A stretch of 35,443 nt of DNA from the NCBI GenBank assembly GCA_937871625.1, contig CALMRD010000342.1, forward strand, positions 1 through 35,443. The letters run 5' to 3'. Positions 8,605-33,858 of the stretch are shown here, piece after piece. The DNA comes from an uncultured Bacteroidales bacterium. Its GTDB lineage: Bacteria; Bacteroidota; Bacteroidia; Bacteroidales; VadinHA17. Position 1 is the first letter of the stretch. Every line of letters starts with the position of its first letter. The notes under the pieces were generated by a model. The model was not told where the DNA came from, ran no database searches, and saw nothing but the letters and a program-made list of their open reading frames with translations. The position numbers and the translations under genes were made by a program.

Positions 8605-9750
8605 TTACAAAGTCAATAACCATTCTCTGAACACCGGATTGGCAAACCTGTATTCGTTTTCAGATTTATAAACCAACGCTTTTTTTTGCAAGGCTTTAAG
8701 TGCCTCAGTCAGTGAAGAACTTACAGGCAGGTCAAACATAGTTCGGACTTTGTCTGAAAAAATGCCGGAGCCTCCATTCTTTGCCAATGCCAGCAGGGTT
8801 GAACGTTGTGTTGTGGTCAACTGATCATATATGTCCTGGAAGATATCTATCTGTGAATACATCACCCTGTTCAACCAGCTATCCCTGAAATCTTCTTTGT
8901 CCTGGTCAATTCCGCTTCGTATTAAGTCAAAAACCACGGAAGCAAAAAATTGAGTATAATGTGGCTGACACTCCGATACTTCAAGGATACTTTCAACCGT
9001 ATGTTTTCTTATCTCCAGGCCATAATCATTGAACTTTTCTTTAATGAAACCCGATAGTTCTGTTTTATTGATCACGGACAATTTCATCCTGGTTGCAAAC
9101 TCGAAAAAAGGTGACTGTGCAGAAGCAAAAATATCTTCCATCATAGATTGTTTGCTCCCAAGAAATATGTACGAAACGTCACGATGTCTCTGGAACGAGG
9201 AACGCATCCAGTTCAACAGGAACGGGTCAATTCTTGAAATCTCCTGGAACTCATCAAAGGCAATGCATATCCGCTTTTTCCTTTGTTGGGAGATACTATT
9301 GGGAACGTCGAGTATTGTTTCAATATCTCGCTGCTGTTCTATCTTGTTTATATTAAGGGAAAATCCGGGATTTCCGAATTGATCAAATGATACCCCCGGA
9401 GAAAGATGCCTGAAACTATCCGACAATTTATTTGTCAGACTTTTTATTTCATCTCTCCAGTTAAATAGTTCCCTGGCAAGTATATCTGAGTATTTCCTGC
9501 TAAAATCATCCAGGGATTTAATGTTGTAGAGATCAACATAAATGCAGATAGCTGATGTCGTTTCACGGAATACCTTATCAACAAGTGATGTTTTGCCAAA
9601 TCGCCTTGGCGAAAACAGCCACGTAGAGTATCCGTTTTCAATTTGTTGCTTCAGAAACGATATCTCCTTTATTCTGTTGCAGAATGCTGTGTCATCGATA
9701 ACAACACCGAACTGGAAAGGATTGCCGTCTAATTCATTCTTTGATTTCAT
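8605..9750 (-). CDS. AAA/archaeal-type ATPase with C-terminal winged-helix-like region
   Basis: P-loop-like 'SPRRFGKTSL', Walker B-like 'ICIAFDEFQEI', C-terminal 'LTEALKALQKKALVYKSENEYRFANPVFREWL'. Confidence 0.8.
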   Translation of the reverse strand: MKSKNELDGNPFQFGVVIDDTAFCNRIKEISFLKQQIENGYSTWLFSPRRFGKTSLVDKVFRETTSAICIYVDLYNIKSLDDFSRKYSDILARELFNWRDEIKSLTNKLSDSFRHLSPGVSFDQFGNPGFSLNINKIEQQRDIETILDVPNSISQQRKKRICIAFDEFQEISRIDPFLLNWMRSSFQRHRDVSYIFLGSKQSMMEDIFASAQSPFFEFATRMKLSVINKTELSGFIKEKFNDYGLEIRKHTVESILEVSECQPHYTQFFASVVFDLIRSGIDQDKEDFRDSWLNRVMYSQIDIFQDIYDQLTTTQRSTLLALAKNGGSGIFSDKVRTMFDLPVSSSLTEALKALQKKALVYKSENEYRFANPVFREWLLTL

Positions 9751-10312: not shown

Positions 10313-13300
10313 ATGAAAAAATTGCTTTTGTATTTGGTCTTTTTTGTGCTGGGGGCTTCTGCCCTGATAGCGCAGACGAGGGTAATTACGGGGAGAGTTA
10401 CTTCATCCACTGAAGGTGAGGGGACACTTCCTGCAGTTACCGTTATTGTAAAAGGTACTGCGATCGGCACCTCAACAGATGCTGATGGAAGGTATTCCCT
10501 GTCTGTTCCCGCAGATGCGACAACGTTGGTGTTCTCCTTCATCGGCATGAAGCCGCAGGAGGTAGCCATTGAGGGGCGTACTGTCATTAATGTTATCATG
10601 GAACCGGAGACAGTGGGCCTTGATGAGGTTGTGGTGACGGCTCTCGGTATCACCCGGGAGAAGAAATCGTTGGGCTATGCCACCCAGGAGGTCAAGGGTG
10701 ATATAATCTCCAACGTCAAGACATCCAACTTTGTGAACAACCTCTCAGGCAAAATCTCCGGAGTACAGATTCAAAGGAACCAGAATATGGGAGGTTCTAC
10801 CAACGTTATTGTCCGGGGTAGCAAATCACTGGTAAACAGTAACCAGGTTCTTTATGTTGTCGACGGGGTACCTATCAACAATCAAATTGGAAAATACACT
10901 GATGTTGGAGTTACCTCAGGCCAGGCCGCCACGGTTGCCGGTTATGACTACGGTAATGCGGCATCAGATATAGATCCTGAGAATATTGAATCAATCAATA
11001 TCCTTAAAGGAGCAGCAGCCACAGCCCTTTATGGCTCCCGTGCCTCGGCCGGTGTTATCATGATAACCACCAAAAAAGGGGCAATACTAAAAGAAGGAGA
11101 GAAGGCGCCTATAGGAATTTCACTTAGTTCCGGCTTCACTTTCAGTAAAATCGACAAATCAACTTTCCCTGTCTATCAGGATCAGTACGGTGCCGGCTAT
11201 GGTTACGGAGACCCACCTGATTTTGGTTTGAGAACGACATCAGGAAGCCTTACTACAAGTGATCCGGTCAATGACCCTCTGGTCAGATGGGTGCAGACAA
11301 CCGAAGACGCATCTTTCGGTCCCAGATTTGACGGCCAGCCTGTGTGGGGCTGGTATTCGGTTGACCCCGAATCACCATGGTATAAGCAATCAAAACCATG
11401 GGAGTTTTCAAAGAACGGCCCTATCACCTTCTTTGAAACGCCGTATACTTATACCAATACTGTTGCTATTGAAAAAGCTACCGATTTCAGTACCATGAGG
11501 CTCTCCTATACCAATTACAACGCCACAGGTTTGCAGCCAAACAGCTCCTTAAAAAGAAATAACCTGACGCTGACCGGGACCTGGAATGTCAATAAAAGGC
11601 TCACGGTTTCGGCTATAGGTAATTACATTTTACTTAAGGGTAAGGGCCGTAATACGACAGGTTATAATGGTAATATTGTAACCAACTTCCGTCAGTGGCA
11701 GCAGACCAACCTGGATTTCAAGGATCTTAAGACGGCTTATGAACTTACCGAGAGAAACTTAACCTGGAATTATAATTCCTCATTGACGTATCCTATTTAT
11801 TCCAATAACCCTTATTGGGATGCATACCAGAACTACGAGACTGATTCAAGAACCCGCTTTATCGGTAATGCCTCCGTCAATTATAAAGTTTTCGATTGGC
11901 TGAATATCTATGGACGAATAGCTGCAGATACATATTATGAAATGCAGGAAGAAAGGAGAGCAGTAGGTAGTGTCTCCATGCGTTTCGGACTTGCAAACGT
12001 GCCGGCCAGGGTCACATCCGGATATCTCCGCAGGGATAATACTTTCAGCGAATACAACGTGGATTTGATGATGAAATTCAATAAGAAAATTGGTGAGTCT
12101 CTGAGCATCAACGGAATACTGGGATTTAACGAACGAAGAACCAATAATGTATTCTTCTCCAACGCTACCAATGGCGGATTGCTCATTCCCGGAATATATT
12201 CACTGCAAAACAGTTTGCAGGCATTACCGTTGCCCCTGGAAGCTAACCAGATTGTTGGCGTAAGAAGCGAATATATAAGCCTGTCATTAGGATATAAAGA
12301 CTTCCTGTTCGTGGATGGAACATACCGTAATGATTATGCTTCTACTCTGCCTGTCAGTAATAATAAGTACCAGTATCCTTCTGTCACCGGAGCATTTCTG
12401 TTTTCCAATATTGTCAATGCGAAGTGGTTGTCAATGGGTAAACTTCGCTTGAATTATGCTCAGGTCGGTAATCTTGCCGGATTTGATCTGCTTTATGATG
12501 TTTACCTGGCAAACAGTCCGATGAATGGTGCCAATACGCAGCTTGCTGCCATTAAAAGGAATCCGAATCTGAAAAACGAACGCACAAACAGCATTGAAGG
12601 AGGCCTCGAAATGGCATTCTTTAATGCGCGCGTCGGTTTCGACCTGGCCCTTTATCAAACCAATTCAAAGGATCAGATTATCCCTGTTACCGTCAGCCAG
12701 ACTACAGGCTTTCAAAGCTTAATGCTCAATACCGGTGAAATTCAAAATAAAGGAATTGAGTTTACTGTAAGTGCCACACCGATAAGAACCGGATCATTCA
12801 GCTGGGATATGACCCTGAACTGGTCAAAGAATAAGAACGAGGTAATAGCCTTATATCCGGGAATTACAAATCTTCGCCTGAACTCGGTTAATTTACAGGG
12901 CGGCGTCACTGTGAATGCCGAAGTCGGCAGGCCTTATGGAACAATTAAGGGGAAAGATTATACCTATGATGCCAATGGGAATAAAATTATCGATGCTGAG
13001 ACCGGTACGCCTGTAATAACAAGCTCGGCCGCCATTTCTATCGGGAACTTTACCCCCGACTGGACCGGAGGTATTAATAACTCATTCAGCTATAAAAATA
13101 TGGCACTGAGCTTCCTTGTTGATGTGCAAAAAGGTGGTGATATTTTCTCACTCGATATGTATTATGGCCTGTCCAGCGGCTTGTACCCTGAGACTGCTTT
13201 TACAAATGACCTGGGTAATCCTGTTAGGGATCCGATCGTCTGGGTTGATGAGGATAATCATAGTCTGGGTTATGCCTCCACAAGTGGCGGATACATCATT

Positions 13301-13657
13301 GAGGGTGTAAATGTTATTGACGGAGTAAGCGTACCCAATAAAACCCGCGTTGATGCTACCAATGCCGACGGGTTTGGTATAGGTCTTCTGCCCCATTCAG
13401 CATTTGTTTATGACGCCAGTTATGTTAAACTGAGAGAAATTGTCTTCACGTATAACGTTCCATCCAAATTGCTGAGCAAGACATTTATCAAAGGAGTATC
13501 AGTGAGTGCAATTGCTTCGAATCCCTGGATAATACATAAGAATTTACCTTACGCCGATCCCGAATCAGGGATGACAGCAGGTAATATCCAGGGCTACACA
13601 ACCGGATCACTCCCGACTACGCGTGATTTCAGTTTCAATTTAAAACTTAACTTTTAA
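10313..13657 (+). CDS. SusC/RagA-family TonB-dependent outer membrane receptor
   Basis: Signal peptide, carboxypeptidase-like N-terminal domain (ITGRVTSS...GTSTDADGRYSL), plug domain (LDEVVVTALGI, VLYVVDGVPINN, SINILKGAAATALYGSRASAGVIMITTKKG), C-terminal barrel. Confidence 0.95.
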   Translation: MKKLLLYLVFFVLGASALIAQTRVITGRVTSSTEGEGTLPAVTVIVKGTAIGTSTDADGRYSLSVPADATTLVFSFIGMKPQEVAIEGRTVINVIMEPETVGLDEVVVTALGITREKKSLGYATQEVKGDIISNVKTSNFVNNLSGKISGVQIQRNQNMGGSTNVIVRGSKSLVNSNQVLYVVDGVPINNQIGKYTDVGVTSGQAATVAGYDYGNAASDIDPENIESINILKGAAATALYGSRASAGVIMITTKKGAILKEGEKAPIGISLSSGFTFSKIDKSTFPVYQDQYGAGYGYGDPPDFGLRTTSGSLTTSDPVNDPLVRWVQTTEDASFGPRFDGQPVWGWYSVDPESPWYKQSKPWEFSKNGPITFFETPYTYTNTVAIEKATDFSTMRLSYTNYNATGLQPNSSLKRNNLTLTGTWNVNKRLTVSAIGNYILLKGKGRNTTGYNGNIVTNFRQWQQTNLDFKDLKTAYELTERNLTWNYNSSLTYPIYSNNPYWDAYQNYETDSRTRFIGNASVNYKVFDWLNIYGRIAADTYYEMQEERRAVGSVSMRFGLANVPARVTSGYLRRDNTFSEYNVDLMMKFNKKIGESLSINGILGFNERRTNNVFFSNATNGGLLIPGIYSLQNSLQALPLPLEANQIVGVRSEYISLSLGYKDFLFVDGTYRNDYASTLPVSNNKYQYPSVTGAFLFSNIVNAKWLSMGKLRLNYAQVGNLAGFDLLYDVYLANSPMNGANTQLAAIKRNPNLKNERTNSIEGGLEMAFFNARVGFDLALYQTNSKDQIIPVTVSQTTGFQSLMLNTGEIQNKGIEFTVSATPIRTGSFSWDMTLNWSKNKNEVIALYPGITNLRLNSVNLQGGVTVNAEVGRPYGTIKGKDYTYDANGNKIIDAETGTPVITSSAAISIGNFTPDWTGGINNSFSYKNMALSFLVDVQKGGDIFSLDMYYGLSSGLYPETAFTNDLGNPVRDPIVWVDEDNHSLGYASTSGGYIIEGVNVIDGVSVPNKTRVDATNADGFGIGLLPHSAFVYDASYVKLREIVFTYNVPSKLLSKTFIKGVSVSAIASNPWIIHKNLPYADPESGMTAGNIQGYTTGSLPTTRDFSFNLKLNF

Positions 13658-13668
13658 TTGAAAATACC

Positions 13669-15168
13669 ATGAAAAAGATATTGATATGCATTTCAGTTAT
13701 CCTGGCGCTTTCCGCCTGCACCAAACTGGAAGATTTGAATCAAAACGTAAAGGATTTTACAACCGTATCGGGAGAATCACTTTACAATGGAGCTACAAGG
13801 CAATTTATGATCCAGTTGTCCACAGAGAGTGTTAACCTCAATCTTACACTGATGTGGATGCAGCACTTTGCCAATACTACTTATCCTGATGAAAGCAGGT
13901 ACGACATGACTACGCGAAATGTACCTGTTAACACCTCGAACGCGATGTACAGGCTTGTGCTTTCGAATTATAAGGAAGCTGCAAGGGTACTGGAGACTCA
14001 ACCCCTGGCAGGCATTTCACAGGCACAGCGTGATAACCAATTGGCTATCATAGAAATAATGTCAGTTTTTGCCTGGAGTTATATCATTGAGAATTTTGGA
14101 GATATGCCATACTCTGAGGCACTCGATTTCAGTTACCCGTCTCCTGCCTATGATGACGCTCTTACTGTTTACAAGGATCTCATTAGCCGTCTTGACGCAG
14201 CAAAGGCACAACTTGACCTCACCGTGGGTGGTATGCCGGAAGGTTATGACAATATCTGCGGGAGCTCACCGGCAGGAACTGTCATGTGGGATAAATTTGC
14301 CAACACATTAAAGCTCAGGATGGGCCTGATGCTCTATGATGTTGATGCCGGATATTCCAAAACCGTTGTGGAGGCAGCCGCTCCGAACGTTTTTGATGCA
14401 GGTGATGTCATGACGATGACATGGCTGGCAGAAGCACCCAATGAGAATCAGCAGTTTCTTGACTTTGTGCAGTCCGGCCGTGATGACTATGTTGTAACTT
14501 CCAATATAATAGATGCAATGCAGCCATCTACCCCAAGGCCTGACACAAGTATATTGATTGTCACGGTCACTGATCCGCGCCTTAAATTCTATGCCATCCC
14601 TGTTGTTGGCAGTAATCCTCCTGTTTACCTTGGTGGTGCTCAGGGTCAGGCCAATGGATATCCGTCATTCTCCCATGTGCACCCGATGCACCTTGAGGCA
14701 GACAGACCATGGATAATAAGTGACTACACTGAAGCTGAATTCCTCCTGGCTGAAGCAGTGGAAAGGGGGTTCAGCGTTGGGGGCACTGCTGAAACACATT
14801 ATAACAATGCAGTAGAATCGTCTATCCTCTACTGGGGCGGAACACCTGCAGAAGCAGATGCATACCTGGCTCAGCCTTCGGTGGCTTATGCAACAGCATT
14901 CCCAAGCTGGAAACAGAAAATCGGAACCCAGGCATGGCTGGCCTACTGGCTCCGCGGGAATACTCTCTGGAATTCCTACAGGAGGCTGGATTATCCACGG
15001 CTGTTTGCTCCGCCAAACTATAAACAGAATATCAACAAGGTACCTGTCAGGCTGTTTTATCCTATTGCCGAGCAGACCCTTAACCCCGAAAATTACGAAG
15101 CTGCTTCGACGGCAATTGGTGGTGATTCACCATTGACCAGGCTGTTCTTCGACAAAGAAATGTACTAA
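13669..15168 (+). CDS. SusD/RagB-family outer membrane lipoprotein
   Basis: Lipoprotein signal (ILALSAC), directly downstream of susC-like gene, SusD-like C-terminus (RRLDYPRLFAPPNYKQNINKVPVRLFYPIAEQTLNPENYEAA). Confidence 0.92.
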   Translation: MKKILICISVILALSACTKLEDLNQNVKDFTTVSGESLYNGATRQFMIQLSTESVNLNLTLMWMQHFANTTYPDESRYDMTTRNVPVNTSNAMYRLVLSNYKEAARVLETQPLAGISQAQRDNQLAIIEIMSVFAWSYIIENFGDMPYSEALDFSYPSPAYDDALTVYKDLISRLDAAKAQLDLTVGGMPEGYDNICGSSPAGTVMWDKFANTLKLRMGLMLYDVDAGYSKTVVEAAAPNVFDAGDVMTMTWLAEAPNENQQFLDFVQSGRDDYVVTSNIIDAMQPSTPRPDTSILIVTVTDPRLKFYAIPVVGSNPPVYLGGAQGQANGYPSFSHVHPMHLEADRPWIISDYTEAEFLLAEAVERGFSVGGTAETHYNNAVESSILYWGGTPAEADAYLAQPSVAYATAFPSWKQKIGTQAWLAYWLRGNTLWNSYRRLDYPRLFAPPNYKQNINKVPVRLFYPIAEQTLNPENYEAASTAIGGDSPLTRLFFDKEMY

Positions 15169-17200: not shown

Positions 17201-18775
17201 TCAGGACAGTGCCTCTGCCCTGAGGCTTTTCAGAGTTTCGTTAAATGACCTGCAAAGGAGCTGATGATTCTCCTCAATATCTGCTTTGCTCTTCATCTTA
17301 TGTTTCTGTCCGTCTCTCAGATAGTCTCCCGATTCGTAATAGTCAAAGAATCCGGTCATGGTTTCAGCCAGGAAAAGATTGCTCTGAGCGACTGTATCCC
17401 TGTATCTTGTCCGGCACTCCTCCCTGGTAATGGTTGAATTACCAAAGTAGTCGGAGACTGCCAGCCAATTCCTCACCCATTTTGCGAGGTTAACAACTCC
17501 CTGCGAACCCCACAGCCACTCTGCAAGGCATTCTGTAACAGCTGACCAGCAGGCATCAAGTGATTCACTTCTGAGGTTATAATCGAGATACCCCGGTCTG
17601 CCCTTGAGTCTGCCCTGTTCTCTCAGCTCTCTCACAAGTTTAGTGCTGAAGTATGGCATCAGTTTAAGAAATGTTATTGGTGCAGTGCCATTGCTGCAAA
17701 CCTTCTCAAGGAATTTCAGATTTTCCCTGAGTGATTTGAAGCTTGTTTCAGGCTGGAACATCATCATGCCGTAATCATAACCGATATCAAGTCTATTAAG
17801 TGTCTCAACAGCAGCGGTGCCTGTCGTTGCTCTCATCCTTTTGTTGAGACGTGTCAGTCCTTCGTCAGTTCCGTCCTCCAGCCCCAGGAAGACCAGAAAG
17901 AGGCCATGCTTTTTCATCAACAGGAAAGTATCCGGGTCTACCTCATCAGGTCTGCAGTTAATCTTCCACATCACCTTGTTGTGTAGGCCAATACGTTCCA
18001 GCTCACTGCAAAATGATTTAATCCAGCTATTTCCGTCTGCACATTTCACCGGGAAGTCGTCATCCTGAAACAGAAACACGGTACATCTCTTTTCCGTGTA
18101 AAGCTGATGCATCTCGCGTATAACCATTTCAGGACTCCTGATACGTTTTACCGGGCCGCCTGCCTGCCGGTAGAACTCCCCCGTATTGCAGAATGAGCAG
18201 TCATATACGCATCCCCTGCCTGAAATGATAGTTGTGAACTTCCTTCCCGGTGCATACTCTCCGGGAGGCTTCCTGACAGGAAAAGGGAAGCTGTCAAGAT
18301 CCTTTTCGAGCTTCCTGAGAGGTGTCGTGACAATATGACCGTCTTCCCGGAATGCTATGTTTCTGACTCTTTTCCAATCGTTGTGAGCCAGGAGACATTT
18401 AACCAGTTCAAGGAAGGTATACTCGCCTTCAAACCGGACTATGGAATCCAGTTCCGGTATCAGCCGGAAAAGTTTATCCGGATGCAGACTGGCATAATAT
18501 CCGCCGGCAGTAAAGTGACAATTGATACCGCCTTTCCTCAGGTACCTGGCAAGATGAGCAAACTCTTCGATGAAAACCTCAAATATCACCGAGAATCCGA
18601 CAGCAACAGGATCATGTCTTCTGATGCAGGCCAGGATCTCCTCATTATCATACCTGAGATCAACCATCCTCGATTCCATGCCTGCCGTGTTCAGTACAGA
18701 CCTGAGGTATCCCACCCCCAGATTTTCTTCTTCTCCGAAGGCAACCAGAAAGACGGGATGTGCAGAGATTCTCAA
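17201..18775 (-). CDS. B12-binding-domain radical SAM protein
   Basis: Rossmann-like N-terminus (NLGVGYLRSVLNTAG...FTAGGYYASLHPDKLFRLIPELDSIVRFEGEYTF), then CxxxCxxC 'RGCVYDCSFCNTGEF'. Start codon is TTG, overlapping the upstream ORF stop (TTGA). Confidence 0.85.
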   Translation of the reverse strand: MRISAHPVFLVAFGEEENLGVGYLRSVLNTAGMESRMVDLRYDNEEILACIRRHDPVAVGFSVIFEVFIEEFAHLARYLRKGGINCHFTAGGYYASLHPDKLFRLIPELDSIVRFEGEYTFLELVKCLLAHNDWKRVRNIAFREDGHIVTTPLRKLEKDLDSFPFPVRKPPGEYAPGRKFTTIISGRGCVYDCSFCNTGEFYRQAGGPVKRIRSPEMVIREMHQLYTEKRCTVFLFQDDDFPVKCADGNSWIKSFCSELERIGLHNKVMWKINCRPDEVDPDTFLLMKKHGLFLVFLGLEDGTDEGLTRLNKRMRATTGTAAVETLNRLDIGYDYGMMMFQPETSFKSLRENLKFLEKVCSNGTAPITFLKLMPYFSTKLVRELREQGRLKGRPGYLDYNLRSESLDACWSAVTECLAEWLWGSQGVVNLAKWVRNWLAVSDYFGNSTITREECRTRYRDTVAQSNLFLAETMTGFFDYYESGDYLRDGQKHKMKSKADIEENHQLLCRSFNETLKSLRAEALS

Positions 18776-19021: not shown

Positions 19022-21481
19022 TTATAATGAATTGCTCAATTTTTTGGTCATTATCTTAAACTCGGGTGTTTCTGTCATGCTTTTCCATGTGGGATCAACT
19101 TTCATGAGATTCATTGAGAACCACGAAGGATTGGTCAGCAGATATTCCACCTGTCGGATCGCATTGGGATAATCAGCGGTCATGGCATAGATCTTGGCCA
19201 GGTTGATGATCAAGTCATTTTTTACCAGGTTGTCATCACTGGCAAGCTGCACTGCGGTTTTGCCGGCTATGACTGCATCGGTTGCATTTCCCAGGCCTGC
19301 ATAGGTCAGGCCGCAGCAGCTGTATGAATACCAGTCGTCAGGATTTGACATTATCATCATCTTATAGACACGGAGGGCAGAGTCATAGTAAGACCTTGTC
19401 ATCTGTTCATTGTTGAGGAGGCTGTATGCCGTTGCTGTTGTGAGGTATCTCAGCCCGGGATACTCATAGTCACCATCTGTTGACGACAGTACTTCATTCA
19501 GGGCATTATTATAACTACCCTCGTAGATATTCAGAAGGATCTTATAATATTTCTGTCTCTCACCTGTTCTTCTAATGACAGTATCGAGCACTTCTCTGGC
19601 CTTCACAGTATTTCCGTCCTTCAGAATGAATGCTTCCATCATGTTGGTATATGGTCCGGACCAGTCAGGCATTACCTCCGTCGCCTTCCGAAAGAAGGCT
19701 ATGGCTGTGTCATAGCTGTGCATATAGGCAAAGGAGCTGCCTATGTTGATAAGTACCAAGGCGTCCTGTGGTTCTTCTTCGATAACCTCTCTTACCAGCT
19801 CCTGTGATCTGTTCCAGTCACCCATTTTACGGTATACCATAGCCATGTAGAACAGGGGATGGTAATTTGCCGGGTCCATCTCCCCGGCCATTCTGAACTG
19901 GGAGAGGGCTTCATGATAGTCTTCGATGCAGTAATAGTTATAGAATCCGAGTGCCACCCGGGCATCCGGCAGGTCGTTCTCCAGCTCCAAAGCTCTTTCA
20001 GCATCAGCCTTGCATTTGTCGACATGTGACGGATCCAGCTGTCCGGTATAGTAACCCCATGATCTTGCAATGGCACGCCTGGCATAAGCCAGGGCAAATT
20101 CAGGGTCCTCGTCTATTGCCCTGTCATACATTTCGATTGCGGCGGCAAAGCTGATAGAGTCAACAAACTTATTTCCTGCCAGCAGATAGTATAAGGCATT
20201 ATCAGACAGAACATTGGCTTTCAGGTAGTCTTTGTATGCGCCCGCGCTTCCGGTAGGATTCTTCTCAATTCGTGCCTTTTCTTCAGGTGTGAGTACTGTC
20301 TCAAGTATTGCAGCAGTTTTAATGGCAATGTCTGTCTGCATCCCGTGAAGTGCATCCCATGTCCCTTCAAAGACATCACTCCACAGTTGTTCATCCATCC
20401 TCACACTGATGAGTTTGACAGTGATCCTTACAATCTCATTGAAGATCTGATAGCTGCCCTCAATAATGTAGTTGGTTCTGAGTTCCTGCCCAATATCCGG
20501 TATTGATTTGGTGGCTGCCCGATATTTCATAACAGAGGTTCTTGGCCTGACAACAAGGTCATTGATTTTGCACAGCTGCGAGATGACCTCTTCAGTCAGC
20601 GCATCTCCCAGCCACAGATTATTTTCATCAGCACCTATACTTTCGAAGGGCAGGACGGCAATGGATTTTTCTTCCAGTTTACCTGCTGCTGACATATTGC
20701 CGATGAATTTGGACAGGGCGAACAACAAGGCAGCTGATGCCACAATTATCATGAAGGTGATAAGAGCACGGCGCGAGGCAACCGATCTTATAGTGGTCGG
20801 TTTCTCCTGAAGCCTGGCTACTGTTTCAGGTTCTTCCCATGGCTCTCTCCGTCCATGTTTTTCTTTATGTGGCGGAGGATTCTCTGACTGCAGGGCGGAG
20901 ACTATCTCCCTGATGGCATTGGCCGTTTTGTTTATCTGGTTGCGGTATCTTGTGCCGTACTGGTTTTTGTGTTCATCATCAACCGGGGTCAGGGGCCTGT
21001 TGACCCCGGGTTCCCTGTAGATGAAATCAATAGCCCGGAGTACCCCTCCGATCTCGTTTTCTATCAATTCCCTGTCTTCACTGTCGAGCTCATGTATCCT
21101 GACAGGCAGTATCCTGCTTGCCACGTTACCGCTGTGGAGGGTAACCTTCAGTCCGAGCCTGTCGGCCGAGGCCTGCCTTATATAAGCCCTGAACTCATGT
21201 TCCCAGGCGAATGATCTGGGGTCACAGTAAGTACGCGAGATGACCGGAATGAAGATCAGACATTTGAGTTTTTGCTTCAGGGATTCATCGACATCATGGG
21301 TGTCAAGCAGTCCGTCATGCGGATTGAGGTCGAAGTAGACGCTTATCTCTTCTTTGAAGGTTGCTTCAAGTTCAGCCCTGAGATGATCAACGAATTCAGT
21401 AACCCAGCCGTCATACCTGTTGTCATTCTGACGGTAGCTGATGAAGATGTCATACTCATATCCCGCTATGAGAGAAGCCAT
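19022..21481 (-). CDS. TIR-like domain / TM / TolB-like / TPR protein
   Basis: YEYDIFISYRQNDNRYDGW...SRTYCDPRSFAWEHEFRAY; TM 'ALITFMIIVASAALLFAL'; SIAVLPFESIGADENNLWLGDALTEEVI; TPRs. Confidence 0.85.
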   Translation of the reverse strand: MASLIAGYEYDIFISYRQNDNRYDGWVTEFVDHLRAELEATFKEEISVYFDLNPHDGLLDTHDVDESLKQKLKCLIFIPVISRTYCDPRSFAWEHEFRAYIRQASADRLGLKVTLHSGNVASRILPVRIHELDSEDRELIENEIGGVLRAIDFIYREPGVNRPLTPVDDEHKNQYGTRYRNQINKTANAIREIVSALQSENPPPHKEKHGRREPWEEPETVARLQEKPTTIRSVASRRALITFMIIVASAALLFALSKFIGNMSAAGKLEEKSIAVLPFESIGADENNLWLGDALTEEVISQLCKINDLVVRPRTSVMKYRAATKSIPDIGQELRTNYIIEGSYQIFNEIVRITVKLISVRMDEQLWSDVFEGTWDALHGMQTDIAIKTAAILETVLTPEEKARIEKNPTGSAGAYKDYLKANVLSDNALYYLLAGNKFVDSISFAAAIEMYDRAIDEDPEFALAYARRAIARSWGYYTGQLDPSHVDKCKADAERALELENDLPDARVALGFYNYYCIEDYHEALSQFRMAGEMDPANYHPLFYMAMVYRKMGDWNRSQELVREVIEEEPQDALVLINIGSSFAYMHSYDTAIAFFRKATEVMPDWSGPYTNMMEAFILKDGNTVKAREVLDTVIRRTGERQKYYKILLNIYEGSYNNALNEVLSSTDGDYEYPGLRYLTTATAYSLLNNEQMTRSYYDSALRVYKMMIMSNPDDWYSYSCCGLTYAGLGNATDAVIAGKTAVQLASDDNLVKNDLIINLAKIYAMTADYPNAIRQVEYLLTNPSWFSMNLMKVDPTWKSMTETPEFKIMTKKLSNSL

Positions 21482-21628: not shown

Positions 21629-24064
21629 TCAATGCCTATTGAAGTATTCATCAAGCAGAGCCTGGAAGCGGATGTCAAACTGCAGTGCTGACAGGTCAGG
21701 ACTGGCTTTCAGCATGTAGAGATCCCTGTACCCGTTTTTAAGGGCTAGTTCAATATTTTCAAGGGCTCCGGGGATATTACCCTGTATGCAGAAAACCCTT
21801 GCAAAGGAATAGTATTGTGAAGAATCCAGGTCTTTAGCTTTCTGAAGCATCTGCCGGGAGATGTCCATCTCGCCCATACGTGCCGTAACAGCAGCCAATG
21901 AAGTGTAGGTACCATAATAGTCAGGAAATGCCTTAGTCCATTTTCTCTCTGCTATTTCTCTGAACTTCTGAAAATTACTCTGGGCTTCCGGCTGATTACC
22001 CATTGCCTCATTATTTACCCCAAGATCATAGTATGCAGGTGCCTCTCCGGGATACCTGGTGATGATTTCTCCGAGCACGGCCATCGCTTCTGAATAATTA
22101 TCCAGTCGCAGGTAAGCATAAGCGAGCCTGTATTGATTCATTACAATATCAGGATTGAGCCCGAAAGCTTTCTGGAAATACCCAATAGCCGTAGCAATAC
22201 TATCGCGGCAAAACCATGCAGATCCCATGTAAATGTACCCCCAGGGATTTTCAGGATTATCGGAAATCATTTTTTCTGCCCAGACAATCAAAGAATCGAT
22301 TTTTCCCAGGTACTCTTCATATATCCATAAAATTGCCGCATATGACAGTGCCTGATCAGGATTAATACTGACCGCCTTCTTGTATTCTTTCAATGCAAGT
22401 TCGTAATGGCCGGACTGCTGATGATACCAGCCAAGGTTATTATGGACGGTCGGATCATCCGGATACAATCTCTTCAGAATATCCATATTGGCAATGGCCT
22501 TATCATTATCATTTTCCACATGCTCAGCATAAAACGCCGTGATGCTGTACTTTTCCCTGTCAGTAAGGTTTTCAGCATTTTCCAGCGCCTCACTGAGAAG
22601 TTCCTTACCTTTCGGATCATTGAACTTCTCGAGCAGTATGTTCCCCAGTGATGCTTTTGCCGCAGTAAAACCCGTATCAATATTGAGTGCATTCTCATAA
22701 TATTTCCTGGCGTTTTTAAAATCGGCAAATAGGTGACTCTCTATCGCCAGGGAATATTGTTGCAGGGCTTTCAGGGAAGAGGTGGTAACCTTCGCCAGAG
22801 GCTTATCCTGTAAGGATATTTGATACCTTGATTCACCAAGGTCCCGGCGGATCTTCCTGCTCAGCTTGTCAATTGCGGGCAGTATCTCATCCTGTGTCCT
22901 GGCATACAGCACCTCAGACTTCAAAAGGTCTCCGGTCTCTGTGTCAATGATCCTTGCCGTGATGGCATATTGGTTTCCGGCCTCGCTTATGCCGGGCACT
23001 ATCAACAGGCCTATCCCTTCCCTGACAGAAATTTCCCTTCCCGTTATCTCATCAACAGATATTTGATCTTTCATCTCCATTCTTGCCAGGGTCTCAATCA
23101 TTCTTGATCTCGTGAAGACATTGAGATAACGTGACTGCCCTGCACTGAGTGAGAATGCAGTATAAAGCGATTTGTCGAAAACCGGATTATCAGTAAGGTT
23201 TTCAAAATCAGTGATCAGAATCCAGTCGCGTTTGGAGAATGGCAATGTGCTTCCGCCGGTGAAGAGATAGATGGCAATAAGTGCCAGTACTATTAATGAG
23301 GAACCGGATGTAAGAGCCAGCTTCTTATTCCCATGAGAGGGGGGGGTGTCTTTGCGCAGGCTATCTGTTGAGGCATCTGGCGGTGTAGCCGGATCGGGAT
23401 CGCCTTTTCCGGAAATGTCGGGTGTGGCGATTTCAGTTTCCTGATCTTCTGTACCGGACACCGATGCACTTATCAGGCCGGAAATCACTTCATCAATTGC
23501 GTTTGCTGCCTTGTTGATCTGGTTGCGATAGCTTATTTTGTGCAAATTCTTTTCCTCTGAGTCCCTGGGTGTAAGAGGACGATTTACGCCAGGTTCGGAA
23601 TAGATAAACTCAATGGGCCTGAGAAACCCTCCCAGAACATTTTCAACAAGAGACCTGTCCTCGGCTTTCAGTTCATGAATCTGAACAGGCAGCACTCTCA
23701 TGGCAACATTGCCTCCCGGAAGTTTCACCCTGAGTCCGAACCGGTCATTGTTGGCCTGCTCCATAAATGCCCTGAACTCATGCTCCCAGGCGAATGAATT
23801 CGGATCACAGTAGGTGCGGGAGATGACAGGAATGAAGATCAGGCATTTGAGTTTTTCCTTAAGGGTAGCATCAACATCATGTGTCTCAAGTAATCCATCA
23901 TGAGGACTGATGTCGAAATAGACGCTGATCTCCTCTTTGAATGTAGCCTCCAGCTCGCTCTTCAGATGTTCGACAAACTCCGTCACCCAGCCGTCATACT
24001 TATTGTCTTTCTGGCGGTAGCTGATGAAGATGTCGTAGTTGTATCCGGGGATCAGGCTGGCCAT
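21629..24064 (-). CDS. TIR-like domain / TM / divergent TolB-like / TPR protein
   Basis: YNYDIFISYRQKDNKYDGW...SRTYCDPNSFAWEHEFRAF; TM 'SLIVLALIAIYLFTGG'; DWILITDFENLTDNPVF...; TPRs. Confidence 0.85.
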   Translation of the reverse strand: MASLIPGYNYDIFISYRQKDNKYDGWVTEFVEHLKSELEATFKEEISVYFDISPHDGLLETHDVDATLKEKLKCLIFIPVISRTYCDPNSFAWEHEFRAFMEQANNDRFGLRVKLPGGNVAMRVLPVQIHELKAEDRSLVENVLGGFLRPIEFIYSEPGVNRPLTPRDSEEKNLHKISYRNQINKAANAIDEVISGLISASVSGTEDQETEIATPDISGKGDPDPATPPDASTDSLRKDTPPSHGNKKLALTSGSSLIVLALIAIYLFTGGSTLPFSKRDWILITDFENLTDNPVFDKSLYTAFSLSAGQSRYLNVFTRSRMIETLARMEMKDQISVDEITGREISVREGIGLLIVPGISEAGNQYAITARIIDTETGDLLKSEVLYARTQDEILPAIDKLSRKIRRDLGESRYQISLQDKPLAKVTTSSLKALQQYSLAIESHLFADFKNARKYYENALNIDTGFTAAKASLGNILLEKFNDPKGKELLSEALENAENLTDREKYSITAFYAEHVENDNDKAIANMDILKRLYPDDPTVHNNLGWYHQQSGHYELALKEYKKAVSINPDQALSYAAILWIYEEYLGKIDSLIVWAEKMISDNPENPWGYIYMGSAWFCRDSIATAIGYFQKAFGLNPDIVMNQYRLAYAYLRLDNYSEAMAVLGEIITRYPGEAPAYYDLGVNNEAMGNQPEAQSNFQKFREIAERKWTKAFPDYYGTYTSLAAVTARMGEMDISRQMLQKAKDLDSSQYYSFARVFCIQGNIPGALENIELALKNGYRDLYMLKASPDLSALQFDIRFQALLDEYFNRH

Positions 24065-24183: not shown

Positions 24184-26013
24184 TCAGATCCTGATTCCTA
24201 TGATGGTAATGTCGTCAGTCTGGTCTTCATCTTTCTCCTCACGCCATCGGTCAAATTCTTCATAAAGAATGTCACCCTGCTCAGGCATGGGATATTTATT
24301 GATCTTCAACAGCAGATCACGGAGTCTTTTCCAGCTATACCGCCGGTGACTGCCGCCCCCGAACTGGTCGGCAAACCCGTCAGAACATATATAGAGTGCG
24401 TCATGCGTGTTCAGGCAAAGAGTTTTTGTTGAAAAGCTGTAAGTGCCATTTTTGAAGTGATCTTCCGAAACAGTGCCTGAAAGATTGCCGGAGATCTTTC
24501 CGTCGGAAACATGAAAAATGGCATTACCTGCACCCGAATATGTCAGTTTCCCGGTGTTGGTATCAAGATTACACAGGATGATTGTCATGTCGTCTGACAC
24601 GGCAAGTTCTGCGGTATCCTTCCGCAGGAATCTGCGGATGCCTGAATAGAGATGGCTGAGGGCTTCAGCAGGGTCGGTTATCCTAAGGATATTTACTGTC
24701 TGATCAAGTATTCCATATCCAATTGTGCTTATAAGTGCAGCCGGGATGCCATGTCCGGTACAGTCGGCGAGGCCAAAAATCACATGACCATCATGTCTGC
24801 TGAAGAAGTAGAAATCGCCACTAACAATATCCTTGGGTTCAAAGAGCAGGAAGCTTTCAGGGAAGCACTCCCTGATTGACAGATTGTCAGGAAGGAACGC
24901 TTCCTGTATGTGCCTTGCGTAGTTGTAGCTGCCCTCCACCTCACTCAGAGAAAGCCTGATCTTCTCGTCAATTGAGGTGAGTTTTTCACTGATCAGCGGG
25001 GAGTTTTCAGCCAGCAGGTTAATACCGGCACTAAGTTCATTTGTGCCTGAAAGAAGCTTATAGATGCTGCTCTGGGGTTTGATGGCATACGACAGCTTGC
25101 TGATCCGGTCAGGTGAGACAGGGTAGGCTTCATATCTGATATCCCGGAGTATGGCAGGTGTCAGTCGCACCAGCTCACGGTCCTTTTCTTTCTCGTCTTC
25201 ACTGAGCTCTGCATAAGGCACCAGGCTGGGGTGTATCTTCTTTCGTTCGTCCCTTTTTATCCCGGTCTTCCATCCGTTAAGCCTTTTCTCCCAGCTCCAC
25301 CTCAGATGCTCGACCCTTGCCATTGTCTCAATCTCCTGATCATTAAGATGGAGAGCCCGTGGTTTGTAGCCCTTCCTGACCGGTCTTATCCTGTAACCTA
25401 TGGCCAGTAATCTCGTTGGTATATGAAAGGCATTGTCAATGTTTGACCGGAGGATCTCATCCGGCAGATCATCAAACTCAGTCATGCCTGGGAGGATGGT
25501 GCCGGATGTGCCGGCCCCCTGTTTCTTTATCTCGCGAAGGTAACTTGCATGAACAGCCCTGGCGATTTTCATTAAAAGGGATTTGTTCACACCTGCAATC
25601 TCTTCCTGCCTGATGATCTCGTATCCGGCTTTTTTAAGACTGGCAGGGATCAGATAGTTCAGTTCGCGGAAAAATTGCCTTCTGTCAGCGGTATGAGACC
25701 CACCGGGCAGGCTGTCAAGATCCATCTCAACAAGAGTGGTTATCTCCTCCTCAGTGATTATGCATGTCCGGCAGAAGTCCCGGTACAGCCTGAGATGCAA
25801 TCCCAAAGCCTGGAGTTTTTGAGGTATCCCTGCCGCATAGTTAATCCAGAACTGCCTATCTGCTTTCCATGGATCTGCAAGTTTCCTGTGCTGAGCGGCG
25901 GCGGCCTGTATTATGTTAGTCCTTCTGCAATCATTAAGAAGACTCTGCGCAACACTTTTGGCCTGAAACTTTATAAAATCTGCCTGATCGGTAAATCCGT
26001 CTTCAGGTTTCAT
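24184..26013 (-). CDS. RyR-domain + SpoIIE/PP2C-type serine phosphatase (SiaA/RsbU-like output)
   Basis: RyR signature 'MARVEHLRWSWEKRLNGWKTGIKRDERKKIHPSLVPYAELSEDEKEKDRELVRLTPAIL'; SpoIIE signature 'PKDIVSGDFYFFSR...GLADCTGHGIPAALIS...ICSDGFADQFGG...QTDDITIIGIRI'. ATG overlaps the SiaC-like stop (ATGA). Confidence 0.85.
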   Translation of the reverse strand: MKPEDGFTDQADFIKFQAKSVAQSLLNDCRRTNIIQAAAAQHRKLADPWKADRQFWINYAAGIPQKLQALGLHLRLYRDFCRTCIITEEEITTLVEMDLDSLPGGSHTADRRQFFRELNYLIPASLKKAGYEIIRQEEIAGVNKSLLMKIARAVHASYLREIKKQGAGTSGTILPGMTEFDDLPDEILRSNIDNAFHIPTRLLAIGYRIRPVRKGYKPRALHLNDQEIETMARVEHLRWSWEKRLNGWKTGIKRDERKKIHPSLVPYAELSEDEKEKDRELVRLTPAILRDIRYEAYPVSPDRISKLSYAIKPQSSIYKLLSGTNELSAGINLLAENSPLISEKLTSIDEKIRLSLSEVEGSYNYARHIQEAFLPDNLSIRECFPESFLLFEPKDIVSGDFYFFSRHDGHVIFGLADCTGHGIPAALISTIGYGILDQTVNILRITDPAEALSHLYSGIRRFLRKDTAELAVSDDMTIILCNLDTNTGKLTYSGAGNAIFHVSDGKISGNLSGTVSEDHFKNGTYSFSTKTLCLNTHDALYICSDGFADQFGGGSHRRYSWKRLRDLLLKINKYPMPEQGDILYEEFDRWREEKDEDQTDDITIIGIRI

Positions 26014-26420
26014 TGCATCTCTGATTCAATGAATTCGAAAGGCAGGTCAACAATCTGTGCCATTTCCCTGCCGGCTTCAAGCATGTCATCATCATCCTTT
26101 ACGTAATACCATCTGGCGGAAGCCTTAATATTTTGGGCATGCAACCTTGCCAGTATCTTGCAGATATCAAGTATGCACTTTGCTGATCCGGAATTGAAAT
26201 AATTGAAATTAAAATTGATCATAACTGGCTTGCTGTTGTCATCCGACCTCAGCAGAGACTCACTGAAATCGTTCAGCCAATCAAGTATCGGGTAGTAAAA
26301 CTCCCTTACATCCTGTGGCCTGGACTCACCCTCAATCTCCAGAAAATGCTCCTCGTGGTCAAGGATGACCCTGGGTGTAAAGACTGTGGGGCTTATGATC
26401 AGCTTTTCCATGGGGGTCAT
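26010..26420 (-). CDS. SiaC-like (DUF1987) regulatory phosphoprotein
   Basis: PTVFTPRVILDHEEHFLEIEGESRPQDVREFYYPILDWLNDF...INFNFNYFNSGSAKCILDICKIL matches the SiaC/DUF1987 pattern as I know it; coupled to the phosphatase gene. Confidence 0.8.
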   Translation of the reverse strand: MTPMEKLIISPTVFTPRVILDHEEHFLEIEGESRPQDVREFYYPILDWLNDFSESLLRSDDNSKPVMINFNFNYFNSGSAKCILDICKILARLHAQNIKASARWYYVKDDDDMLEAGREMAQIVDLPFEFIESEMQ

Positions 26421-29897: not shown

Positions 29898-31496
29898 TTG
29901 GTTATCAGGCGGCCAGTTGCGTCCAATAATAAAAGCATAAATTTGGTATCGCTTAAGAATAAAAAAATGAAAGGCACCTTGCTATTATTGCGTCTGCCAT
30001 TATTTACAAAAATCTACCAGTATTTCCTGGTTGTCATAATAATTGGGCTGACAACCTTGATTCTCAGTCCGCTTTCAAACCCGCAGAGTTATCATATTGT
30101 TTCATTCATTCTTCTGTTCGTTGTTGCCATGCTTGCGGTCTTTATGGGGATAGGGCCCGTTCTGCTGGCTTCAACTATAAGTGCCATTTCCTGGAACTAT
30201 TTTTTCATTCCGCCTTATCACACTTTTCATATTGAGAAGACCGAAGACAGGCTGATGTTTATCTCCTTCTTTATCATTGCGCTTCTGAACGGCATCCTTA
30301 CCAACAGGATACGCAGGCAGGAGAGGCTGGTCAGAGACCGGGAGAATCAAACCAATGCCCTGTTTCAGCTTACTGAGGAGCTTTCAAAAGCCAGCGGGAT
30401 TGACAGCGTTCTTGAAGTAGCACGCAATGATTTCAGGAAACATTTCAATGCCGAATGCTGGTTCATAATTCAGGATGGCAACAACAAACTTGATTTTGCG
30501 TCACCTGGCAAGGGCATAAATGAAACACCTGACATAGATAAACAGATAGTTGAAATGGTCTTCCGGGACTCGGTCAAAGCGGGCAGATATACAGACTCTT
30601 CAGAAGAAGCCGACCTGACCTATCATCCGCTTACGGGAACCCGTCTAAATCCCGGAGTCATCGCCATCAGCATCGACAGGCCGGCATATATTAACAGGGG
30701 AGCATTCTGGGACACTTATTTTACACAGATTTCCAACGCTCTTGAACGTGAGTTTCTCGCTGAACTGGCAGTGAAAGCGAGGATACTGGATGAGTCGGAC
30801 AAGCTGTATAAGACCTTGTTCAATCTCATCTCTCATGAATTCAGGATCCCGATCGCTGCGATAATGGGGGCATCCGACACATTGATGATTTCAGAGACCT
30901 CCCTCAAAAGCCGGAAAGAGTTATACAGTGAGATATTCAAGGCATCAGCGAGGCTCAATCATCTGATCGAGAATCTTCTGAATATGTCACGTCTTGAGAG
31001 CGGTAAAATTGCATTGCACCCCGACTGGTACGATGTTAATGATCTTGTAAACAAGGTTTGTCAGAATCTCAAACAGGATCTGGATCAGTTTAATTTCAAA
31101 ACGATCATACCTGAAGATATGCCCCTGGTCTGGATCGATTTCGGTCTTATGGAGCATGTCCTGTATAACCTTTTACTTAACTCGTGCCAGCACTCTCCCG
31201 CTTCGGGTGATATTGAGCTGGAGGCAGAGTACGTTAACGGAGAGTTTATTCTGAAGGTGACTGATAGCGGTCCCGGTTTTCCTCCGCGTCTCCTGCCCAA
31301 TGTTTTTGATAAATTTTTCAGAGTGGACGGATCCAGGGCAGGAGGCCTGGGTCTGGGTCTGTCGATAGTAAAAGGGCTGGTTGAGGCTCATAACGGTAAT
31401 GTAAGGGTAGAGAACAACCCGGGCGGAGGCGCCGGATTTACTGTCTCAATACCTTCCGGGGTACCTGATATGCATGAATTAACACAAGCAGAATGA
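29898..31496 (+). CDS. KdpD-like sensor histidine kinase (DUF4118 TM region, GAF-like, HisKA, HATPase), lacking the KdpD N-terminal domain
   Basis: Four-TM region '...FFIPPYHTFHIEKTEDRLMFISFFIIALLNGILTNRIRRQ'; H-box 'LISHEFRIPIAAIMG'; 'DSGPGFPPRLLPNVFDKFFR', 'GGLGLGLSIVKGLVEAHNG'. Start may be ATG 29967. Confidence 0.85.
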   Translation: MVIRRPVASNNKSINLVSLKNKKMKGTLLLLRLPLFTKIYQYFLVVIIIGLTTLILSPLSNPQSYHIVSFILLFVVAMLAVFMGIGPVLLASTISAISWNYFFIPPYHTFHIEKTEDRLMFISFFIIALLNGILTNRIRRQERLVRDRENQTNALFQLTEELSKASGIDSVLEVARNDFRKHFNAECWFIIQDGNNKLDFASPGKGINETPDIDKQIVEMVFRDSVKAGRYTDSSEEADLTYHPLTGTRLNPGVIAISIDRPAYINRGAFWDTYFTQISNALEREFLAELAVKARILDESDKLYKTLFNLISHEFRIPIAAIMGASDTLMISETSLKSRKELYSEIFKASARLNHLIENLLNMSRLESGKIALHPDWYDVNDLVNKVCQNLKQDLDQFNFKTIIPEDMPLVWIDFGLMEHVLYNLLLNSCQHSPASGDIELEAEYVNGEFILKVTDSGPGFPPRLLPNVFDKFFRVDGSRAGGLGLGLSIVKGLVEAHNGNVRVENNPGGGAGFTVSIPSGVPDMHELTQAE

Positions 31497-32176
31497 ATGA
31501 GAAAAAAAACATACTGATCATTGATGATGAGGTCCAGATCCGCAGATTGCTGGAGATTTCACTGTCGGCATACGAATTCAATACATTTTTTGCTGAGACC
31601 GGACAGCAGGGACTGGTGGCAGCTGCAACCCACCATCCTGCGTTGGTAATTCTGGACCTGGGTCTCCCGGATACTGATGGCCTGCAACTGCTACTCAGGT
31701 TACGGGAATGGTTTACCAAACCTGTTATTGTCCTTTCAGTTCGCAGTTCGGAGGAAGATATTGTGGCAGCATTGGATAATGGTGCAAATGACTACCTGAC
31801 CAAACCTTTCAGGAGCGGTGAATTGATCGCCAGAATCCGTGCAGCAATCAGATCGAATGAGGAGAGAAAGGATAGTCCAATGATGGAATTCGGGTCACTC
31901 ACTATTGATATGATCAGTCATGTGGTACGCAAGGACGGCGAGATAATCAGGCTTACGACAACAGAATTCGCCTTGCTGGCTCTCCTGGCCGGAAACAGCG
32001 GCCGTGTGCTTACTCATCAGTTCATCCTTAAAGAGATATGGGGTTATGGCTACCGGGAACAGACACAATATCTGCGCGTTTTTATTGCCCAGCTCAGAAA
32101 GAAGATCGAGGACAATCCTTCAAAACCTGTACTGCTTGTTACTGAGTCGGGCATAGGATACAGGTTTGGTAATTAG
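31493..32176 (+). CDS. KdpE-like OmpR/PhoB-family response regulator
   Basis: Receiver 'ILIIDDEVQIRRLL...VILDLGLPDTDG...YLTKPF' and winged-helix 'RLTTTEFALLALLAGNSGRVLTHQFILKEIWG...YRFGN'. ATGA overlap with the kinase. Confidence 0.92.
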   Translation: MNEKKNILIIDDEVQIRRLLEISLSAYEFNTFFAETGQQGLVAAATHHPALVILDLGLPDTDGLQLLLRLREWFTKPVIVLSVRSSEEDIVAALDNGANDYLTKPFRSGELIARIRAAIRSNEERKDSPMMEFGSLTIDMISHVVRKDGEIIRLTTTEFALLALLAGNSGRVLTHQFILKEIWGYGYREQTQYLRVFIAQLRKKIEDNPSKPVLLVTESGIGYRFGN

Positions 32177-32322
32177 CACAATTACACTGATTGTATTCCA
32201 GCCGATGCCGGCATTCAGTGCCCGGGACTAGCCTGATTCTGTTCTACGGCTTAACTAATTTGTCATCCCACGGGTACCGTCATTCTGTGCCCGTGGCTGA
32301 TCCGCCCCTGTCCTGTCACATC

Positions 32323-32340
32323 TTTACAAAATCTTTATAA
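32323..32340 (+). promoter_or_regulatory. Direct repeat TTTACAA-AATC-TTTATAA (11-bp period) upstream of trkH; candidate operator
   Basis: Same architecture as 29862..29879. Confidence 0.55.
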
Positions 32341-32388
32341 CCCCGGGGCAATTCTTTACTTAATGCTTACGGTTCCTGGCTCAATTTT

Positions 32389-33858
32389 GTGCAGGAAATT
32401 CATTTTGCACTGATGAGATTGATAAATCCATTGACAATCCTCAGGATTCTGAGTACCATTCTGCTGATTGAGACTGGGTTCTTCCTGCTCTGCCTTCCGG
32501 TAACCTTCATTTACAGAGAGCCACTGCAGCCGTTTCTCATATCCCCGGCAATCAGTGGAGTGTTGTATCTGTTTCTCCGTTTTATCGGCAGAAAGGCTGA
32601 CCCAAGGGTGGTAAGCAACAGAGATTCATTTCTAATCGTGATTATCGCGTGGATCTCATTTTCACTTTTGGGTTCGCTGCCCTATCTGATCAGCGGTAGC
32701 ATACCATCATTTGTTGATGCCCTCTTCGAATCAACGTCAGGATTCACGACGACAGGCTCTTCAATCCTGCAGGATGTTGAAGCGCTTCCATATTCAATTC
32801 TTTTCTGGAGAAGCCTTACGCACTGGATCGGGGGAATTGGAATAATAGTATTGGTCATACTCGTACTTCCGTCTCTTAAAATTGCCGGATACCATCTCTT
32901 CAGCCTGGAATCTTCGCTTAAGGAAAAAATCCACCCGAGAACCAGGGGGGTAGTATACCGGGTTCTCTATATTTATGTTGGTCTCACTGTTATTGAGATA
33001 CTTTTTCTGGTACTCGGAGGCATGAATCTATTTGACAGTGTCTGCCATGCCTTCGGAACAGTTGCTACGGGAGGCTTCTCACCAAAAAATACCAGCCTGG
33101 CAGAGTACTCGTCATATATTCAATATGTTGTTGCTGTTTTTATGTTTTTATCAGCAACAAGCTATGTGGTATTTTATTATGCTTTGAAGGGGAGTTTCAA
33201 GAAGGTTTTTAAAAATGATGAATTCTGGGCCTATCTCTTTATTGTTACTGCGAGTGTGGTCTTTGTCACTCTCACCTTATATTTTAAAACGGAACGTAAC
33301 TTTGAGCTCTCTTTCCGGCATGCATTCTTCCAGGTTGTCTCCCAGATAACATGTACAGGATATGCAACATCAGATTACACGGCGTTTCCATCAATCGGGA
33401 TGTTTTTTATGTTCCTGATCATGTTTTCCGGGGGGTCAACAGGATCAACCACCGGAGGAATAAAGATTGCACGGCATCTGGTATCCATGAAGAATCTCAG
33501 GAACACATTTATCAGGATCCAGCATCCCAATGCAGTCATCCCCATCAGGCTGAACGGGAGGATTGTCCCGGAGGGGTATGCAAACCAGATGACGGTCTTT
33601 ATTCTGCTCTATCTTTTCATTTTTGTAACCGGTAATATAATCATGCAACTGACGGGCATCTCCATTTTAGAGGCCTCCGGAGCCTGCGCATCGTGTATGG
33701 CAGGCATCGGCCCCGGGTTGGGAGCCTCAGGAAATATGGGCAATTATGCTCATTTCAATGACGCTGCCAAGATCACCATGATGCTCCTGATGCTGATTGG
33801 TCGTCTTGAGCTATTCACCTTCCTGACCATCTTCACCCGTACATTCAGGAGAAACTGA
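32389..33858 (+). CDS. trkH: TrkH-family potassium uptake transporter subunit
   Basis: Selectivity-filter-like repeats 'STSGFTTTGSS', 'GTVATGGFSPKN', 'SQITCTGYATSD', 'GIGPGLGASGNMGNY'; multiple TM segments. ORF start is GTG; ATG at 32413 is an alternative. Confidence 0.9.
   Translation: MQEIHFALMRLINPLTILRILSTILLIETGFFLLCLPVTFIYREPLQPFLISPAISGVLYLFLRFIGRKADPRVVSNRDSFLIVIIAWISFSLLGSLPYLISGSIPSFVDALFESTSGFTTTGSSILQDVEALPYSILFWRSLTHWIGGIGIIVLVILVLPSLKIAGYHLFSLESSLKEKIHPRTRGVVYRVLYIYVGLTVIEILFLVLGGMNLFDSVCHAFGTVATGGFSPKNTSLAEYSSYIQYVVAVFMFLSATSYVVFYYALKGSFKKVFKNDEFWAYLFIVTASVVFVTLTLYFKTERNFELSFRHAFFQVVSQITCTGYATSDYTAFPSIGMFFMFLIMFSGGSTGSTTGGIKIARHLVSMKNLRNTFIRIQHPNAVIPIRLNGRIVPEGYANQMTVFILLYLFIFVTGNIIMQLTGISILEASGACASCMAGIGPGLGASGNMGNYAHFNDAAKITMMLLMLIGRLELFTFLTIFTRTFRRN

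Follow-up and report, generated by a model that had tools for sequence, protein, structure and literature searches.

The window analysed here, a stretch of 35,443 nucleotides from an uncultured Bacteroidales bacterium, carries a gene in which a RyR domain is fused to a SpoIIE/PP2C phosphatase (RyR-PP2C). This gene, its domains and its neighbours are listed in Table 1. The original prediction, made from the letters of the DNA, had proposed this fusion and had placed RyR where partner-switch phosphatases carry their sensors. Both points were confirmed by Pfam, NCBIfam, Foldseek and the homologues, and the coordinates stood, while the location on the minus strand, the neighbouring SiaC partner and the link to TIR genes had gone unnoticed. 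Profile searches gave strong matches to both families: RyR (PF02026) at residues 228-284 with 55.5 bits (cut-off 27.4, E 7.1e-15) and SpoIIE (PF07228) at residues 408-608 with 67.5 bits (cut-off 25, E 1.9e-18). The closest sequence relatives of known structure were the SiaA PP2C domain (6k4e) and the repeat domains of ryanodine receptors. In a profile search the protein carried the sole RyR domain of its 3.48-Mb genome.

Exact-peptide seeding over 84,980 species genomes returned only 8 homologues, all from Bacteroidales MAGs, with 83-51% identity and 610-648 aa; seven were full length and one was truncated by a contig end. Since the same protein is encoded in 8 further MAGs, the fusion is neither a chance event nor a mis-assembly. 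No RyR-phosphatase (RyR-SpoIIE) fusion was seen outside this family in the genome draws searched, and no description of one was found in the literature, a bioRxiv survey of TIR systems (10.64898/2025.12.03.692087) being beyond the reach of the search. The architecture is not widespread and, judging from these genome sequences, is rare.

Table 1. Genes and domains at the RyR-PP2C locus, in window coordinates.
Feature	Position	Strand	Details
RyR-PP2C phosphatase gene	24184..26013	minus	609 aa, ATG start; 8 homologues
RyR-like unit 1, degenerate	25762..25992	minus	residues 8-84; hhalign vs unit 3 E 1.4e-6; helix-helix-strand in AlphaFold model
RyR-like unit 2, degenerate and shortened	25591..25764	minus	residues 84-141; hhalign vs unit 4 E 4.7e-5
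RyR-like unit 3, degenerate, contains KIARAVHASYLREIKKQ	25360..25593	minus	residues 141-218; hhalign vs unit 4 E 5.7e-6, end-to-end alignment
Canonical RyR unit 4	25099..25362	minus	residues 218-305; PF02026 E 7.1e-15; H236, W239, H261, D278
SiaA-like SpoIIE/PP2C domain	24187..24984	minus	residues 344-609; acidic residues D400, D417, D545, D600/D601
SiaC family phosphoprotein, presumed substrate	26010..26420	minus	Pfam SiaC E 2.2e-31; Ser at T68 phosphosite
Divergent ABC transporter, 1027 aa	26612..29695	plus	adjoins SiaC; possible output
TIR-TM-TPR protein TIR5, presumed signal maker	21629..24064	minus	TIR_2 match across homologues; hhalign 96% to canonical TIRs
Second TIR-TM-TPR protein TIR4	19022..21481	minus	TIR_2 match among homologues
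B12-binding radical SAM protein	17201..18775	minus	syntenic in 4 homologue loci

The approximately 180 residues ahead of RyR had been described as free of any obvious domain, apart from a possible degenerate second copy at KIARAVHASYLREIKKQ. Profile comparison and the AlphaFold model assign this region to RyR-like units 1-3. The suspected second copy is real and corresponds to unit 3, and two further degenerate units precede it. In hhalign with sub-alignment profiles in local mode, the unit pairs 1/3, 3/4 and 2/4 scored 35.6, 33.7 and 27.8; among 155 control tile pairs with a tile from the phosphatase half, the highest score was 20.3. Between residues 8 and 305, the AlphaFold prediction of RyR-PP2C (mean pLDDT 69, built from a nine-sequence alignment) shows four successive copies of the pattern helix / helix-helix / short strand. 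Moreover, the human RyR3 Repeat12 tandem was matched by Foldseek over ~190 columns with an E value of 7e-5. The N-terminus is accordingly modelled as four tandem RyR-like units, of which the last alone is canonical. Animal ryanodine receptors also carry tandem RyR repeats, four in all (Repeat12 and Repeat34), whereas RyR-PP2C lacks the channel, the SPRY domains and the other receptor parts, and three of its units are degenerate. A Ca2+ role for RyR-PP2C was also considered and is unsupported, the channel and SPRY domains being absent from the protein.

In unit 4, residues H236, W239, H261 and D278 were invariant in nine homologous RyR-PP2C proteins, down to ~50% identity. They form the motif H-x2-W-x21-H-x16-D, and its offsets of +3/+25/+42 are identical to those of the ADP-ribose-binding residues H75, W78, H100 and D117 of the phage RyR enzyme RyDEP (PMC13232231). 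In RyDEP, itself a PF02026 protein, these four are the ligand/catalytic residues. In units 1-3 the motif is lost. Work from 2026 showed that cADPR isomers made by TIR proteins are bound or cleaved by RyR proteins of phages (PMC13232231). The majority of the tested RyDEP relatives bind 2'cADPR/3'cADPR without cleavage, which is compatible with a receptor role of the RyR module; only the DyoEdafos protein among them cleaved the signals despite high sequence conservation (PMC13232231), so RyDEP-type residues do not predict catalysis. In contrast to the phage protein, RyR-PP2C is chromosomal, fused to a phosphatase, built of four tandem units, and encoded alongside TIR genes instead of in opposition to them.

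The acidic residues of the phosphatase domain lie in the PP2C metal-binding motifs (GDFY, ADCTGHG, DG, TDD) and are invariant in the homologues, and the model of this domain superposes on SiaA-PP2C (6k4e) with a Z score of 20.9 (VIA). The best NCBIfam family was the SiaA equivalog NF038263 at 160.5 bits, below its 700-bit cut-off, with profile positions 396-657 alone aligned to residues 344-609. RyR-PP2C may work like SiaA, but it is not SiaA. The SiaC gene lies upstream and overlaps the RyR-PP2C gene by 4 bp, which suggests SiaA/SiaC-type partner switching as the output, and it adjoins RyR-PP2C in 7/7 testable homologue loci. In Pseudomonas aeruginosa, SiaC is dephosphorylated at T68 by SiaA (PMC7647112). 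All RyR-linked SiaC proteins, from the window and its orthologues, have Ser at the position aligned to T68, which could still be phosphorylated, and Thr is kept in two SiaC paralogues elsewhere in the same genome. Three SiaB-family kinases above the cut-off were found elsewhere in the genome and none at the window locus. At the most distant RyR-PP2C homologue with a complete locus (L037), a SiaB-family kinase and SiaC share one ORF (8838-9746) beside the RyR-PP2C phosphatase, and this locus thus holds a complete SiaABC set.

The SiaA/SiaB/SiaC/SiaD pathway of P. aeruginosa, a threonine-phosphorylation pathway (PMC7647112), has in common with the window a SiaA-like PP2C domain and an adjacent SiaC-family phosphoprotein, and with L037 a SiaB-family kinase, there fused to SiaC. 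The window differs from it in the four-unit RyR N-terminus, in having no SiaD or SiaB at the locus, and in the Ser replacing T68. In each of the 7 homologue loci that extend far enough, the ABC transporter lies next to SiaC, and a paralogous SiaB-SiaC-ABC locus lies on contig C128 of the same genome. These two observations make the transporter a candidate output of the switch.

Downstream of RyR-PP2C lie TIR5 and TIR4, whose TM segments were assigned by eye. Taken singly, their TIR domains scored below the Pfam threshold, TIR5 reaching 17.8 bits for TIR_2 vs a cut-off of 28. All 15 sampled TIR-TPR homologues matched TIR_2, with no other family recurring, and the putative catalytic Glu was conserved in every one of them. 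hhalign matched TIR5 at 96% to seven TIR-like N-termini from other RyR loci and placed E96 on their invariant Glu. TIR structures were among the top Foldseek/VIA rows for the TIR5 model (pLDDT 59), where receiver and other flavodoxin-like folds scored similarly, and comparison of the TIR alignment with PDB sequences by HMM yielded chance hits only. We classify these regions, from their sequences, as putative, divergent TIR domains. Three more TIR-TM-TPR paralogues lie on the minus strand of the window (442-2403, 4131-6269 and 6305-8371), so that every full-length copy detected in the genome, five in total with TIR4 and TIR5, lies in the window; one extra fragment is located on contig C11. Residues 249-567 of TIR5, in its C-terminal part, resemble NCBIfam TIGR04510 (putative peptide modification system cyclase), and the TIR domain lies N-terminal to the shared region.

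The order SiaC - RyR/PP2C - TIR(s) was kept in 6/8 Bacteroidales homologue loci, with the radical SAM gene next in four of these. Because these loci are orthologues of one another, the synteny that they share does not count as independent evidence. The two exceptions were L038, with no TIR downstream of RyR-PP2C, and L037, where the adjoining TPR gene is truncated by the contig end. The TIR type of the window was found in 7/393 genomes of the order, compared to 5/6 of the RyR-PP2C genomes checked; in genomes G545 and G638 it is present and RyR is absent.

The linkage of TIR and RyR extends beyond the phosphatase family. RyR was found in 27/395 genomes of the phylum Bacteroidota. The TIR_2 search was run over these RyR-bearing genomes, and linkage was assessed outside genus g60 and outside G096, where RyR sits at a contig end. 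A TIR gene was adjacent to the RyR gene in G002 and G034 and overlapped it in G013, which belongs to the same genus as G034. In G216, whose genome has no other TIR, it lay 5 bp from the RyR gene, and in G089 the distance was at most 6.5 kb. The Fisher combined P for this proximity was ~8e-10 over five loci/genera including the window, counted with one genome per genus (G034 omitted) and without G632, G416 and G538, which had been examined owing to other leads. The latter gave three further loci with a TIR next to or near TrkA_N-RyR.

At every one of these TIR-linked loci except the window, the RyR partner was TrkA_N, as assigned by Pfam for G002, G013, G216, G089 and G632 and by eye plus similarity for the others. 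The TrkA_N-RyR proteins beside TIR genes (G002, G013, G216, G089, G632, G416 and G538) have the same degenerate-plus-canonical RyR tandem as the window, with a unit of the unit 3 type preceding the canonical RyR, and the same TIR neighbours. Their output differs: PP2C is replaced by a TrkA_N/RCK protein whose N-terminus has hydrophobic segments and which is probably an ion channel. In G632, the TIR-TPR family of the window is paired with a TrkA_N-RyR gene 67 bp upstream instead of RyR-PP2C, which indicates that the TIR travels with RyR and not with the phosphatase. A general linkage of RyR to TIR was considered and rejected, as the AAA plus tandem RyR proteins of genus g60 were not linked to TIR. 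No description of a host TIR-RyR pairing was found in the literature; the bioRxiv survey mentioned above, which the RyDEP paper cites, and a nucleotide-centric-systems paper may overlap with it, above all for the TrkA_N-RyR pairs.

Several other RyR loci were recorded in passing. On an Arcobacter plasmid (L098, 5754-9477), genes for TrkA_N, RyR and DUF4062 proteins stand in a row, and DUF4062 has been reported to be a TIR-like NADase (PMC13174449). On a Priestia plasmid (L101, 2590-10799), a RyR protein is encoded beside a nucleotide cyclase and an effector of the Pycsar type, and a TIR gene follows ~1.4 kb beyond. Locus L118 (3739-11546) encodes two RyR proteins, one of them of the TrkA_N-RyR type, in a cluster with a TIR-like gene and a 215-aa protein judged SLOG-like by eye. 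In genus g60, with genomes of 2.2-3.3 Mb, an ATPase-like tandem-RyR protein is followed by a P-type cation ATPase assigned by eye (L003, 1-1728), with no TIR link.

In our preferred reading, to which we give an even chance, RyR-PP2C is a SiaA-type partner-switch phosphatase with a four-unit RyR sensor, switched by an ADP-ribose-type nucleotide made by TIR proteins and acting on SiaC. The membrane-anchored TIR-TPR proteins would consume NAD+ and form this nucleotide when their TPR region receives a trigger. Binding of the nucleotide to the RyR module, in the pocket of H236, W239, H261 and D278, would raise or lower the activity of the fused PP2C domain. The PP2C domain would then dephosphorylate the co-encoded SiaC, which in turn could engage a partner, perhaps the neighbouring ABC transporter. 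Like phage RyDEP, the RyR domain may in addition break down its ligand by hydrolysis, and in that case the signal would be self-terminating. This is the most economical reading, and each alternative is weaker on linkage or on pocket conservation.

In the most serious competing explanation, the RyR module responds to a common adenine nucleotide (ATP, ADP, ADPR or NAD+) and so reads energy or NAD status; there would be no TIR messenger, and the TIR-TPR proteins would be scaffolds or a separate system. Human RyR3 R12 was crystallised with ADP and AMP-PCP (chains 9l9b and 9ls7; PMC12627627), and the genome of the most distant homologue (L037, genome G786) encodes RyR-PP2C with no detectable TIR, an adjoining TPR gene being truncated there by the contig end. 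However, it would not explain why TIR and RyR are linked in several genera and with two types of output, and the conservation of the catalytic TIR Glu in 15/15 proteins also speaks against it; we regard it as unlikely, though well worth keeping in view. It is less probable again that the module is a signal-degrading glycosidase, a host RyDEP that clears TIR-made cADPR isomers and merely reports its occupancy to PP2C. The equivalents H236 and D278 of the RyDEP catalytic dyad H75/D117 are invariant, but the lone cleavage by the DyoEdafos protein among conserved relatives and the loss of the motif from three of the four units count against such an enzyme.

A scaffold on which the phosphatase docks or dimerises, through protein-protein contacts and with no small molecule, would fit the missing pocket residues in 3/4 units, the position of animal RyR repeats at the channel periphery and the dimeric SiaA PP2C domain (PMC7647112); it would hardly fit the unit 4 pocket residues, invariant down to ~50% identity, and we think it quite improbable. 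That TIR and RyR-PP2C are independent and merely reside together in variable defence-like islands is the least credible alternative: plasmid RyR genes do sit among mobile and defence genes, but the pairs in G013, G216, G002 and G632 overlap or lie 0-70 bp apart and the gene order is conserved in Bacteroidales.

On the preferred reading of a TIR product received by RyR, the locus resembles Thoeris (ThsB TIR plus a nucleotide-sensing effector), in which a TIR gene likewise adjoins a protein with a domain from an ADP-ribose-nucleotide-binding family. The window differs in its sensor, which is RyR and not SLOG or Macro, and in its predicted output, a partner-switch phosphatase in place of a NADase, caspase or membrane effector. 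Among known anti-phage systems, PADLOC gave only ABC, TPR and ATPase cross-hits at the locus and no informative match, with nothing for the phosphatase, SiaC or TIR4, a TPR hit only for TIR5, and no Thoeris model.

More tentatively, and with somewhat less confidence than for the locus itself, we propose that bacterial RyR domains are general receptors for TIR-made ADP-ribose messengers, plugged either into probable ion channels (TrkA_N-RyR) or into a Ser/Thr partner-switch phosphatase. If true, this would give a function to many bacterial 'RyR domain-containing proteins' and would tie TIR nucleotide signalling to SiaA/SiaC-type phospho-switches and ion channels. The RyR-PP2C locus would be a host pathway that turns a Thoeris-type nucleotide into protein dephosphorylation, and host RyR domains as the matching receptors would explain why phages carry RyR proteins. 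It would also place a cADPR-type messenger upstream of a RyR domain in bacteria, an arrangement long debated for animal ryanodine receptors. RyR-PP2C would also offer a small system for asking whether a RyR repeat tandem is a cADPR-isomer receptor, as has been asked of those receptors.

Two further gene sets were observed on the plus strand of the window. A DUF4118 sensor kinase, a response regulator and a TrkH-like transporter follow one another at 29898-33858 and look like a set for the regulation of potassium uptake, and a SusC/SusD-like pair, recognised by eye, lies at 10313-15168.
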